Source: Luteimonas sp. JM171
GTDB lineage: Bacteria > Pseudomonadota > Gammaproteobacteria > Xanthomonadales > Xanthomonadaceae
Assembly: GCF_001717465.1 (NCBI RefSeq)
Contig: NZ_CP017074.1
Span: 1,330,873 to 1,394,872, forward strand
Reading direction: 5' to 3'
DNA length: 64,000 nt
Shown: in pieces, positions 4,657 through 17,980 of the stretch
Layout of the letters: every line of letters starts with the position of its first letter
Position numbering within the stretch: the stretch's first letter is position 1
Notes under the pieces: model-generated
Database searches by the model: none
What the model was told of the DNA's origin: nothing
Seen by the model: the letters and a program-made list of their open reading frames with translations, nothing else
Position numbers and translations under genes: made by a program

Positions 4657-6681
4657 TTACGCCGCCATGCCGCTGTGCCGCAGCAGGGCATTGATCTCCG
4701 GCTCGCGGCCACGGAATGCGGTGAAGTTCTCCAGCGCCGTCCGGCTTCCGCCACGCGAGAGGATCTCGCGGCGGAAGCGCTCCCCCGTCTCGGCCACCGC
4801 TTCCGGCGCCTCCTCGAACGCCGCGTAGGCGTCCGCGCTCAGCACCTCGGCCCACTTGTAGCTGTAGTAGCCGGCCGCATAGCCGCCGGCGAAGATGTGC
4901 CCGAACTGGTGCGGGAACCGGTGCCAGGCCGGCGGCCGGTTCACCGCCACCTCGTCGCGTACCTGTTCCAGCAGCGCCATAACGTCGGTTGATCCGGGTT
5001 CAAAGCCGCTGTGCAGCAGCATGTCGAACAGGGCGAATTCCAGCTGGCGCACGGTCTGCATGCCGCTCTGGAAGTTCTTCGCCGCCAGCATCCGGTCGAA
5101 CAGGTCATCGGGCAGCGGCTCGCCGGTTTCCACGTGCCCGCTCATCGCCTGCACCCGCCCGCGCTCCCAGCAGAAGTTCTCCATGAACTGGCTGGGCAGC
5201 TCCACTGCATCCCACTCCACGCCGTTGATGCCGGCCACGGGCAGGGTGCCCACCTCGGTCAGCATCTGGTGCAGGCCGTGGCCCATCTCGTGGAAGAGCG
5301 TGAGCACTTCATCGTGGCTGAGCGTGGCCGGCTTGCCGTCCACGCCCTTGCCGAAGTTGCACACCAGGTACACCACCGGCGTCTGTCCGCCGGTGGCCAG
5401 CTCGCGGCGGTTGCGGCAGTCGTCCATCCACGCTCCGCCGCGCTTGCCCGGCCGCGCGTACGGATCCAGGTAGAACTGGCCGACCAGGCGGCCGGAGGCA
5501 TCCTTCAGCGAATAGAAGCGCACGTCCTCGTGCCATACCGGCGCCTCGTCCTCTTCAACGCTGATGCCGTACAGGTCGTGGATCAGGCCGAACAGGCCCT
5601 TCAGCACGCGCGGCTCGGTGAAGTACTGCTTCACCTCCAGCGCCGAGTAGCTGTAGCGCGCCTGGCGCAGCTTTTCGCTGGCCCAGGCCAGGTCCCAGGG
5701 TTCCAGTGTGTCCAGGCCCAGCTCGTCGCGGGCGAAGGCCTCCAGCTCGGCGCGATCGCGCTGCGCGTGCGGCTTGGCCTTGGCCGCCAGCTCGCGCAGG
5801 AAGCCCAGTACCTCTTCCGGCGTCTTGGCCATCTTGGTGGCCAGCGAGACTTCGGCGTAGCTGTCAAAGCCCAGCAGTTCTGCAAGCTCCGCGCGCAGGG
5901 CCAGGATGCGCTCGATGTTGGCGGTGTTGTCCAGCTCTGCAGGCCCGGCTTCCGAGGCGCGCACGCCATAGGCGCGGTAGAGGGTCTCGCGCAGGCTGCG
6001 GTTGTCTGCATATGTCTGCACGGGCAGGTAGCAGGGCATGTGCAGGGTCAGCTTCCAGCCCTTGCGGCCGTCTTCCTCGGCGGCCGCGCGGCAGCTGGCC
6101 AGCACGTCGGCGGGCAGGCCGGCCAGCTCGGCCTCGTCCTCCACGTAGAGGGCGAAGGCGTCGGTGGCGTCGAGGAGGTTTTCGGAGAACTTCGCCGAGA
6201 GCGAGGCCAGCTCCTGTTGCACCTCGGTGAAGCGGGCGCGCTTGTCGTCCTCCAGCTCCGCGCCGCCGAGGCGGAAGTCGCGCAGGGCGTTTTCAACGGC
6301 CTTGCGGCGGGCCTGGTCGTAGCCGTTGAATTCCGGGGACTGGGCTAGGCTGCGGTACTGGGCGTAGAGGGCCTGGTCCTGGCCCAGGGCGCTGAAGAAG
6401 CGGGTGACCTTGGGCAGGGCGGCGTTGTAGGCCTCGCGGATCTCCGGGCTGTTCATCACCGACTGGAGGTGGGTGACCTGGCCCCAGGCGCGGCCGAGTT
6501 TCTCGGTGGCGTCCTCGAGGGGGGTGACGAAGGTGTCCCAGGTGACGGGGGTGACCTTCCTGGCCTGTTCGACGGCGGCTTCGGCTTCTTCCAGCAGGGT
6601 GTCGATGGCGGGGGCGATGTGGGCCGGGGTGATCTGGTCGAAGCGGGGGAGGCCGGTGAAGTCGAGCAGGGGATTGGTCAT
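4657..6681 (-). CDS. prlC: Oligopeptidase A (M3 family zinc metallopeptidase)
   Basis: A 674-residue cytosolic peptidase, the usual length of PrlC/OpdA. The zinc motif HEMGH is at 464-468 in the context LFHEMGHGLHQML, and the third ligand region and substrate-binding tyrosines follow in the helical C-terminal half (GGYAAGYYSYKWAE). The family degrades signal peptides and other oligopeptides after proteolysis. The start at 6681 (MTNPLLDFTGLPRFD) matches the typical N-terminus of the family; the open frame continues upstream to 6840, but that stretch reads through the intergenic repeat and is not protein-like. The gene is alone, divergent from a DUF378 gene, and the shared upstream region contains the nested inverted repeat at 6807-6915. 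Confidence 0.95.
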   Translation of the reverse strand: MTNPLLDFTGLPRFDQITPAHIAPAIDTLLEEAEAAVEQARKVTPVTWDTFVTPLEDATEKLGRAWGQVTHLQSVMNSPEIREAYNAALPKVTRFFSALGQDQALYAQYRSLAQSPEFNGYDQARRKAVENALRDFRLGGAELEDDKRARFTEVQQELASLSAKFSENLLDATDAFALYVEDEAELAGLPADVLASCRAAAEEDGRKGWKLTLHMPCYLPVQTYADNRSLRETLYRAYGVRASEAGPAELDNTANIERILALRAELAELLGFDSYAEVSLATKMAKTPEEVLGFLRELAAKAKPHAQRDRAELEAFARDELGLDTLEPWDLAWASEKLRQARYSYSALEVKQYFTEPRVLKGLFGLIHDLYGISVEEDEAPVWHEDVRFYSLKDASGRLVGQFYLDPYARPGKRGGAWMDDCRNRRELATGGQTPVVYLVCNFGKGVDGKPATLSHDEVLTLFHEMGHGLHQMLTEVGTLPVAGINGVEWDAVELPSQFMENFCWERGRVQAMSGHVETGEPLPDDLFDRMLAAKNFQSGMQTVRQLEFALFDMLLHSGFEPGSTDVMALLEQVRDEVAVNRPPAWHRFPHQFGHIFAGGYAAGYYSYKWAEVLSADAYAAFEEAPEAVAETGERFRREILSRGGSRTALENFTAFRGREPEINALLRHSGMAA

Positions 6682-6806
6682 TGGGGGCTCTGGGTAAGGA
6701 CTGATCTGTAATGAGGTGGGGACGTTTTGCGGGGTCTCCAAGGGTTCGTGAGGGGGCTGAGCGATGAAGTGTTCGGTGCGTGCCTGGGTGCGCTGTGAGC
6801 TGACGG

Positions 6807-6915
6807 GCCCCGCCGCGGCCGGGAGGCCTTTTCGCTCCATGTCCCCCGGAATCCGCCTGGCGGCGGATTCCTCCTCCTTTACTTACACGAAAAGGCCTCC
6901 CGGCCACGGCGGGGC
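6807..6915. repeat. Nested inverted-repeat element, copy 1
   Basis: Outer arms 6807-6834 and 6888-6915 pair at 27 of 28 positions. Inside them lie two conserved strands, CTCCATGTCCCCCGG (6835-6849) and CCTCCTCCTTTACTTAC (6870-6886), which are not complementary to each other. Between these is an inner hairpin, AATCCGCC-tggc-GGCGGATT. The same two strands recur at 15341-15451 and, inverted, at 15511-15608, each with different outer arms. It sits between the divergent prlC and DUF378 genes. Confidence 0.9.
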
Positions 6916-6978
6916 TCGGCTCCGGTGGGAGTCGGGAGGGTCTTCCCCGGGAAGATGGGAGCGAGGGGGCGGGGCCCT

Positions 6979-7206
6979 TTGAAGATCCTCAATCTCGTCA
7001 CCCTTGCGCTCGTGATCGTCGGCGGCATCAACTGGGGCCTGGTGGGCCTGGCGCAGTTCGACCTCGTGGCCGCCATCTTCGGCGGCCAGGATGCGCTGCT
7101 GGCCCGCGTGGTGTACCTGCTGGTCGGTCTGTCGGCGCTGTGGCAGATCATGCCGCTGGTGCGCGCCGGCAGCGCCGGCGAAGTACAGGCGCAGGCCAGC
7201 CGCTGA
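6979..7206 (+). CDS. DUF378 family small membrane protein
   Basis: A 75-residue protein beginning LKILNLVTLALVIVGGINWG, the characteristic start of DUF378 proteins, with two transmembrane segments at about 5-25 and 44-63 and a short polar tail. The natural N-terminus falls on a TTG codon at 6979, preceded at suitable distance by a run of G (6964-6974) that can serve as a ribosome binding site; an in-frame ATG at 6955 would add a Gly/Arg-rich segment that does not look like protein. The function of the family is unknown. A strong terminator follows at 7234-7274. Confidence 0.8.
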   Translation: MKILNLVTLALVIVGGINWGLVGLAQFDLVAAIFGGQDALLARVVYLLVGLSALWQIMPLVRAGSAGEVQAQASR

Positions 7207-14033: not shown

Positions 14034-14125
14034 CGCGCGGCGCGTGGCCCATGGAGTGTCCGGAACAGTAGCCATGGCCGTGGACAGCGAGTGTGAATGC
14101 ACGCCCGCCATGCGAACATCCAGCC

Positions 14126-15265
14126 ATGGACCAGAGCACCCCCGACGCCGGCAACACCTCCCGCGATCCTGCGCCCCTCGGGCCGCTCGCGCGCCAGGCG
14201 CTGGTGCAGGGGCGGCTGCAGGCGATCGTCTACGGCGGCCTGCTGGCGCTGATGATCGGCTGGGTGCTGTACATCGGCCGGTCCGTGTTCGTGCCGATGG
14301 TGTTCGGGGTGATCGTGGTCTACATCATCATCGGCCTGTCGCGCGGGCTGCGGCGCCTGCCCACGGTGGGCCGCTGGCTGCCGCCCTGGCTGTGCTATGT
14401 GGCGTCGATCGCCTCGATCCTCGCGGTCATCACCGCCGGGGCGGTGCTGGTGGTCAACAACATCGGCCGGGTGGTGCAGCTGGTGCCGCAGTACGAGCAG
14501 ACCCTGCTGCAGATGATCCAGCGCGGCGCCGTGTTCCTGGGCATTGAAACCGCGCCCACCTGGACCACCCTGCGCGACCAGGTGCTGGACCAGATCAGCG
14601 CCCAGGCGGTGATCGGATCCACCGTGGTATCAGCCACCGCCATCATCGCCACCCTGGCGGTGGTGCTGCTCTACGTCACCTTCCTGCTGGTGGAAAAGCG
14701 GGTGTTCCCGCACAAGCTGCGCAACCTGTCCGATGATCCGGAGGACGTGTCACGCATCCGCCAGGTGCTCGACGGCATCAGCGCCCGGGTGGGGCAGTAT
14801 CTCGCGCTCAAAACGCTGGTGAGCGTGATCCTGGGGGTGATCAGCTGGGCCATCATGGAAATCTTCGGCGTCGAGTTCGCCGGTTTCTGGGCGGTGTTGA
14901 TCACGGTGCTCAACTTCGTGCCCTACATCGGCTCGTTCCTGGGCGTGCTGTTCCCGGTGGCGTGGGCGATCGTGCAGTTCGGCGAGTGGGGCACCGTGAT
15001 CACGCTGCTGGTGCTGCTGACCAGCGCCCAGTTCGTGATCGGCAACTTCCTCGATCCCTGGCTGCTGGGCAATTCGCTCAACCTCAGCCCGTTCGTGATC
15101 CTGGCCAGCCTCACCATCTGGGGCGGGCTGTGGGGCATCCCCGGCGCATTCCTGGCCGTGCCCATCACGTCCGTGCTGGTGATCATCCTCTCCGAGTTCC
15201 GCGGCACCCGCCCCATCGCCGTGCTCATGTCGCGCGGCGGCGAACTGCACGACCGTTCCACGTAG
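14126..15265 (+). CDS. AI-2E family transporter (PerM/TqsA-like permease)
   Basis: A 379-residue membrane protein with paired N-terminal helices (about 26-78), a long amphipathic middle region (about 105-165) and four to five C-terminal helices. The segment LNFVPYIGSFLGVLFPVAWA and the following NFLDPWLLGNSLNLSPFVI are family signatures. The family exports autoinducer-2 or other small solutes, and some members are Na+/H+ exchangers; substrate is not inferable. The gene is divergent from the oxidase operon with under 100 bases between start codons. The ATG at 14126 is preferred over 14093 on length, with no strong ribosome site for either. Confidence 0.88.
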   Translation: MDQSTPDAGNTSRDPAPLGPLARQALVQGRLQAIVYGGLLALMIGWVLYIGRSVFVPMVFGVIVVYIIIGLSRGLRRLPTVGRWLPPWLCYVASIASILAVITAGAVLVVNNIGRVVQLVPQYEQTLLQMIQRGAVFLGIETAPTWTTLRDQVLDQISAQAVIGSTVVSATAIIATLAVVLLYVTFLLVEKRVFPHKLRNLSDDPEDVSRIRQVLDGISARVGQYLALKTLVSVILGVISWAIMEIFGVEFAGFWAVLITVLNFVPYIGSFLGVLFPVAWAIVQFGEWGTVITLLVLLTSAQFVIGNFLDPWLLGNSLNLSPFVILASLTIWGGLWGIPGAFLAVPITSVLVIILSEFRGTRPIAVLMSRGGELHDRST

Positions 15266-15340: not shown

Positions 15341-15451
15341 GGGCCCCCCCGCGGCCGGCAGGCCTCTGCGCTCCATGTCCCCCGGAATCCGCCAGGGCGG
15401 ATTCCTCCTCCTTTACTTACGCGCAGAGGCCTCCCGGCCACGACAGGGCCC
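15341..15451. repeat. Nested inverted-repeat element, copy 2
   Basis: Outer arms 15341-15370 and 15422-15451 pair at 25 of 30 positions. The conserved strands CTCCATGTCCCCCGG (15371-15385) and CCTCCTCCTTTACTTAC (15404-15420) enclose an inner hairpin AATCCGCC-ag-GGCGGATT. The first bases of the arms next to the core differ from copy 1 (CTGCG/CGCAG instead of TTTCG/CGAAA) yet remain complementary. Confidence 0.9.
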
Positions 15452-15510
15452 GGCTCCGGTCACTGTTACGACGCTGCCCGCCTTTGACGACGCGGCCACG
15501 ACTTGTCCAG

Positions 15511-15608
15511 CGCCGGGTGGGGGTGCCCTCCAGGCGTAAGTAAAGGAGGAGGCCGGAGCGCAGCGCAGGCCGGGGGACATGGAGCCTGGAGGGCACCCCC
15601 ACCCGGTG
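15511..15608. repeat. Nested inverted-repeat element, copy 3 (opposite orientation)
   Basis: Outer arms 15511-15535 and 15584-15608 pair at 24 of 25 positions. The conserved strands appear as their complements: GTAAGTAAAGGAGGAGG (15536-15552) and CCGGGGGACATGGAG (15570-15584). The inner part is CCGGAGCGCAGCGCAGG, which differs from copies 1 and 2 but can also fold on itself. The outer arms are unrelated in sequence to those of the other copies. The remaining DNA in 15266-15655, between the convergent AI-2E and peptidase genes, shows nothing else. Confidence 0.9.
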
Positions 15609-15655
15609 CCTCCGCGTCCCGACAGCGCGAGCTTTCCCTTGGTTGGGGGAAGCCC

Positions 15656-17980
<2,325 letters not shown>

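Follow-up and report, generated by a model that had tools for sequence, protein, structure and literature searches.

A large family of inverted hairpin pairs with a nearly invariant purine-rich loop in Luteimonas and Burkholderiales

The three repeat copies detected in a 64,000-nucleotide stretch of the Luteimonas sp. JM171 genome (hereafter the window) belong to a large family of hairpin pairs that is apparently undescribed, no published description having been found in the open-access literature searched (subscription papers were outside its scope). Each unit can form, on one defined strand, a long stem on the outside and a variable hairpin on the inside, separated by a small purine-rich internal loop, with the layout 5'-stem-TNAAGGAGGA-hairpin-GGGGGACA-stem'-3' on the folded strand. 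Both helices are backed by covariation: compensatory changes mark the evolution of the stems, with very little change in the loop. The two conserved strands of the original prediction were recovered where it had placed them, with 0 mismatches (Table 1), and a comparison with relatives at the window's own loci showed that synteny was lost.

Table 1. Repeat units and adjoining genes in the window.
Feature	Position	Strand	Remarks
M3 peptidase gene (PF01432)	4657..6690	-	adjoins copy 1
Copy 1, subfamily Y, single	6805..6916	-	outer arms 6805-6834 and 6887-6916; minus is the strand inferred to fold
Copy 1, internal loop, 3' side	6840..6847	-	GGGGGACA on the folded strand
Copy 1, internal loop, 5' side	6872..6881	-	TAAAGGAGGA on the folded strand
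AI-2E family transporter gene (PF01594)	14093..15265	+	flanks copies 2 and 3, converging on the pair
Copy 2, subfamily Y, first of the pair	15341..15450	-	arms 15341-15370 and 15421-15450; loop strands 15376-15383 and 15406-15415
Spacer between inverted copies 2 and 3	15451..15510	.	differs from pair to pair
Copy 3, subfamily Z, second of the pair	15511..15609	+	arms 15511-15535 and 15585-15609
Copy 3, internal-loop strands	15541-15550; 15572-15579	+	TAAAGGAGGA and GGGGGACA, respectively, on the plus (folded) strand
DPP IV / S9 peptidase gene (PF00930, PF00326)	15656..17947	-	flanks copies 2 and 3, converging on the pair

The window genome (G000, a single contig of 2.99 Mb) contained 39 exact copies of the two-strand pattern, compared with 0 for the reversed-pattern control. 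TCCTCCTTTACTTAC was present in 48 exact copies and 5 copies with one mismatch (reversed control: 3), and the covariance model returned 53 matches. The search of the genome and its relatives proposed with the original prediction thus gave 53 copies in G000 alone and further ones in relatives, and the three copies seen at first are not the only ones. Once classified, the 53 copies comprised 36 of subfamily Y, with arms as in copies 1 and 2, and 17 of subfamily Z, with arms as in copy 3. All Z copies (17/17) had an inverted Y copy close by, and the opposite orientation noted for copies 2 and 3 is this same inverted Y/Z arrangement. The reported difference in outer arms between copies was likewise borne out, one core lying within at least two unrelated arm sequences (Y and Z) in the same genome.

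Within the genus, the covariance model matched 18 of 52 genomes, with 3 to 87 matches per genome (up to 90 candidates were scored in each). A generalised pattern retrieved at least 120 stretches from the GTDB contig set; the matches listed included Lysobacteraceae as well as genera of Burkholderiales and Rhodocyclaceae, such as Hydrogenophaga, Rhodoferax, Rubrivivax and Variovorax. The exact pattern was found in 4 of 369 genomes sampled across the class, three of them (G000 included) in the family of the window, and in 83 of 250 genomes and 59 of 141 genera of one other family (reversed control: 0). Overall, family members are scattered over numerous bacteria of soil and water, and across Burkholderiales this loop was found combined with unrelated stems. 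Among plasmids, one pair used as query gave 4 partial matches (21-28% of the query), and the L. terricola element described below gave no match. A viral contig collection yielded one exact match (L342:7376), which resembles a real unit and may be host flank; phage carriage was rejected, as this sole match sits near the end of its contig. Units with Stenotrophomonas-like arms were also present in records titled Bacillus subtilis SK7B5 (L132, L149, L160, L199, L206, L212), an assembly for which mislabelling or contamination is likely.

Thirty-five diverse copies, drawn from 40 sharing one core length, were aligned without gaps; 91.7% of cells pair and 33 of 39 pairs were altered on both sides (346 cells). 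None of 500 shuffles reached the observed covariation, and sliding the register by one base destroyed the signal. Four of the rows omitted (L159, L184, L200, L213) have another arm offset and pair at 16-20 of 20 positions in their own register; the fifth (L179) has hybrid arms (15/20). A second alignment, of 40 copies from two species chosen from 69 distinct copies, had an outer helix that was 97.2% paired, with 9 of 14 pairs changed on both sides.

The mismatches in the outer stem point to one folded strand. Across 136 copies, which share ancestry so that mismatch counts are not independent events, the strand reading GGAGGA..GGGGGACA had 224 outer-stem G.U pairs and its complement 37, the excess lying on the former in 98 copies and on the latter in 4. 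G.A-type mismatches in the outer stem followed the same direction (53 vs 12), and the control beyond the stem (d at least 32) gave 9 vs 17 G.U pairs. Near the loop, G.A/A.G mismatches and Watson-Crick pairs alternate at the same positions among copies. The strand inferred to fold was also predicted to be the more stable one in 132 of 147 copies. Bias and stability together assign the folded strand to minus for copies 1 and 2 and to plus for copy 3, so that for copies 1 and 2 it is the complement of the strand quoted in the original prediction. The prediction's reading of compensating change at two levels, and hence of a fold under selection, receives strong support from the covariation and the G.U strand bias.

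A few units depart from this layout. Unpaired outer flanks, named beforehand as evidence against the fold, were seen in rare copies: L077 (979-1150), of subfamily Y, whose loop and right arm are intact and whose left arm is replaced by terminator-like sequence, and L179 (3311-3410), a hybrid that combines one Z-type with one Y-type arm (best 15/20 arm pairs). At L136:4910 (minus) the inner hairpin is missing (GG-A-CC), the inner stem being dispensable at least once. The left arm of L216:6222 (+) matches L121/L204 and its right arm differs, which suggests recombination between units. Coding potential was rejected, as no frame is common across copies; a common reading frame is broken because the inner hairpins differ in length.

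When up to two mismatches were allowed per strand, stems of 17-18 pairs out of 18 were found in 236 of 930 distinct candidates, compared with 2 of 341 for a scrambled motif. In the 254 copies with stems of at least 15 pairs, hardly any position of the loop TNAAGGAGGA / GGGGGACA varies. The exceptions are N, for the most part A or C, and two bases that face each other: A38, which is G in 14 copies, and G65, which is A in 20. These two bases mostly vary together: with stems of at least 17 pairs (236 copies), 12 copies had both changes, 1 and 7 had a single one and 216 had neither, the corresponding counts for stems of at least 15 pairs being 13, 1, 7 and 233. The A/G to G/A swap was thus present in 12 of the 13 G-bearing copies (p = 1e-14, uncorrected for relatedness). 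Eight almost fixed Gs, arranged as GG-N-GG and GG-N-GG, surround the inner hairpin, and this pattern of fixed and variable bases suggests that the two duplexes may flank a two-layer G-quadruplex in the loop (GG-N-GG / GG-N-GG). A bolder and rather doubtful proposal is that the units form a new class of shape-recognised, paired, strand-specific hairpin, whose sole fixed feature would be a purine-rich quadruplex-like loop, its middle bases co-varying, between freely evolving duplexes, and which a host-wide factor would keep in two bacterial families independently of any carrier transposon. The family also lends itself to testing, on natural sequences, if selection acts on quadruplex-duplex structures in bacteria.

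Concerning the arrangement of units, tolerant matching at L115-L234 identified 53 close pairs in the order + then -, 1 in the order - then + and 5 on the same strand, in addition to 55 singles. One inverted orientation is therefore common to 53 of 59 close pairs, and the core-to-core distance was 101-129 bases in 48 of the 53. About two thirds of the counted copies lie in close pairs, nearly all of them inverted and with differing arms. Gene context was assigned with an unvalidated custom gene finder after 29 units at edges had been dropped: 31 units were in convergent gaps, 5 in divergent gaps, 58 in codirectional gaps and 1 within a gene, against 44 convergent, 83 divergent and 168 codirectional background gaps.

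This placement after genes, with convergent gaps enriched and divergent ones depleted, would suit a structured RNA, in which the transcribed folded strand acts as a 3'-UTR element, a terminator-adjacent hairpin or a small RNA, and the inverted pair provides one folded copy from read-through on either side. The wobble and the covariation are RNA-like as well; G.U tolerance is most familiar from RNA, and G.T is also tolerated in DNA hairpins. Five loci (four from Hydrogenophaga and one from a MAG titled Burkholderiales bacterium) possessed a shared unit just after tyrS (NCBIfam TIGR00234), tens of bases past the stop codon and with compensated arm changes in place; these copies would be transcribed, which also speaks for an RNA role. 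Against such a role, no orientation bias relative to transcription was detected in codirectional gaps, the folded strand being sense in 24 cases and antisense in 23 (16 and 14 when partners were sought tolerantly), and antisense singles retain the strand-specific wobble excess (22 to 3). They had somewhat more other mismatches per copy than sense singles (1.36 vs 0.38; n = 14 and 16; rank test on disallowed pairs, p = 0.80), the direction that would be expected of an RNA role. Terminator-like hairpins were found within 150 bases of 19 of 100 units compared with 17 of 500 random points (11/33 vs 8/165 in G000; 7/16 vs 6/80 in L. terricola), an enrichment that is overstated because the random points lie mostly inside genes; that some copies adjoin such hairpins counts against the RNA explanation. 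A known Rfam RNA was rejected, as the window gave 0 Rfam matches and six loci and the pair region matched only below the gathering score. The structured RNA raised in the original prediction is thus the main rival explanation, with a lower probability, supported by fold and placement and weakened by the lack of both an Rfam family and a strand bias to flanking genes.

On balance, the family probably consists of structured DNA modules, the hairpin acting as single-stranded DNA whose purine loop is read by a putative protein, with spread by an ISL3 transposase in Luteimonas. A single-stranded DNA structural site is favoured over an mRNA element because the units show no orientation bias to genes: selection on the fold acts on one strand whichever way transcription runs, and the inverted pair always exposes one good hairpin. 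The protein, of host or element origin, would recognise the loop by shape, by analogy with attC sites or REPs. Whichever strand is exposed, for instance as lagging-strand template, would bear one correctly folded copy, and the differing arms would prevent the two copies from forming a single long, perfect inverted repeat. The excess of other mismatches in antisense singles would argue against this single-stranded DNA explanation. A structure that persists while its stems turn over, and that one third of the genomes sampled from one family (83/250) share with a second family, suggests that common environmental and opportunistic bacteria possess a recognition system so far overlooked. A covariance model exists for the structure, its folded strand is defined, and the two-base swap is bench-testable.

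In Luteimonas, the pair is carried in a non-autonomous ISL3-type MITE of ~400 bp, whose two distinct terminal repeats match autonomous ISL3-family insertion sequences (IS). In L. terricola, the pair lies inside a ~400-bp element with ends GGTTCATCTCCCAACTCCGGGGAA and GGTTCTTCTCCCAACTGAGGGAAT, beside A/T runs. Both ends were present in 7 of 20 fetched loci, 339-414 bp in length (L346, L347, L352, L354, L356, L359, L362), and they match the ISL3 elements L363 of G000 and L374 of G070. An exact 8-bp target duplication was found in one of the seven complete elements (L352); the other six adjoin A/T runs without an exact 8-bp duplication. L363, an ISL3-family IS (PF01610), spans 1309 bp; its two ends are almost identical to those of the L. 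terricola element and its 8-bp duplication is exact. A second ISL3 IS of G000 (L393), ~80 bases from a Y copy, has a related end and an exact 8-bp duplication. The Luteimonas elements thus resemble ISL3 IS and MITEs in their terminal repeats (GGTTCATCTCCCAAxTCCGGGGAA / GGTTCTTCTCCCAACTGAGGGA), and A/T-rich targets, and may share the 8-bp duplication, which is exact in some; the ISL3 transposase would have dispersed them in trans. The family differs from known ISL3 elements in the hairpin module, which was not found in the autonomous L363, and in that ISL3 ends were unseen at Burkholderiales pairs.

Purely selfish cargo, with the hairpins as internal parts of ISL3-type MITEs conserved only through the youth of the copies, would account for the near-identical dispersed copies of L. 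terricola, which share terminal repeats and in which the arms move with the core, and would fit the autonomous ISL3 elements of G000. However, this is unlikely, as the G000 copies, those of the window included, had no ISL3-type ends detectable at up to 4 of 16 mismatches, yet their loop strand is exact in 48 of 53, and as the same loop occurs with unrelated stems across Burkholderiales, where such ends were unseen. If the G000 copies once had ISL3 ends, the hairpin has outlived them, the loops there being intact. When outer flanks were compared in 68 pairs, 12 were similar at p of at most 1/100, seven from Luteimonas and five not (L177, L189, L192, L202, L230); among these 12, ISL3-type ends were seen only in the seven Luteimonas pairs, and none were seen at Burkholderiales pairs. 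T-run-linked end remnants were present at some Stenotrophomonas-like loci (L147, L199, L231).

Two Burkholderiales pairs (L189, L202) have long, similar inverted flanks beyond the stems, which may be element ends of another kind. At L072:1200-1245 (G000:C1, ~103.5 kb), an ISL3 IS end lies within a Z loop sequence (GTAAGTAAAG|GGTTCATC) and truncates the unit; at its far side, the IS region shows a partial duplication and contains an N.

The original prediction had also proposed a mobile core that inserts into existing hairpins, and it would agree with the finding that, within a single genome, the core is enclosed by at least two unrelated sets of arms. Nevertheless, the arms are common to dozens of copies and move with the core, in Luteimonas as part of a repeat within the ~400-bp element with its own terminal repeats. 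They also covary in place, both arms of the orthologous copies beside tyrS changing together. A core that targets palindromes is hence scarcely credible.

The inverted palindromic pairs located after genes also recall BIMEs and REPINs, which raises mobilisation of REP/BIME or TIR elements by a RAYT/TIRYT transposase (Y1_Tnp). Like REP, BIME and REPIN sequences, the units are short intergenic palindromes with a high copy number, inverted pairs and a position mostly downstream of genes, but they are longer (~100-115 bp) and have a double-stem fold. REP sequences have a 5' GTAG foot, whereas the element is conserved in its internal loop, with GGAG there and not in an outer foot; no GTAG-type foot at the end of a 20-40 bp palindrome was found, the conserved strands lying inside a double stem of ~100 bp. 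The GGGG-rich motif recalls the GGGGWSAS motif given for TIRYT repeats (PMC3733652). It does not match it, as the base after GGGGACA is T in 33 of 35 rows and G or C in 2, and no Y1_Tnp gene is adjacent. Some Y1_Tnp gene was found in 27 of 39 element-bearing genomes, where action in trans would be possible, but PF01797 was absent from the copy-rich genomes G000, G013 and G036. None of the 68 Y1_Tnp loci inspected, 47 from element-bearing genomes and 21 from the relatives set, holds the element, and 25 of the 47 have other inverted repeats around the gene. With two mismatches per strand, these loci gave 80 loose candidates with a best stem of 15/18, real copies having mostly 17-18. RAYT/TIRYT mobilisation was accordingly rejected as very improbable.

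In integron attC sites, one strand folds and is read by shape, the stems vary and few unpaired features are conserved. The units share with attC the single folded strand, the variable stems, the conserved unpaired bases and an inner hairpin that varies or vanishes (L136), and differ in the additional long outer stem and the inverted pairing. The beta-proteobacterial repeat element BRE (PMC3110155) is described as a ~90-bp, GC-rich, mostly intergenic repeat that occurs in Bordetella, Polaromonas, Rhodoferax, Delftia and other genera; it has mobile-like features, one transcribed copy, head-to-tail tandem arrangement and >70% identity. Compared by this description only, BRE resembles the units in GC-richness, length, mostly intergenic position and mobile-like features and differs in its head-to-tail tandems with >70% identity.

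As for recurrent neighbours, no mobility gene was recognised in the 25 largest neighbour-gene clusters (named by eye), and the genes between the G000 copies at 2815160 and 2821355 were ordinary by eye. A 72-aa ORF runs through copy 1 (window 6764-6982, +), probably by chance, and similar ORFs may get annotated as small hypothetical proteins. The spacers of the G033 pairs (L037, L041, L042, L046, L048, L051) contained GTAGGTCGGGGCTACGCCCCCGAC-like palindromes that are REP-like, with GTAG.
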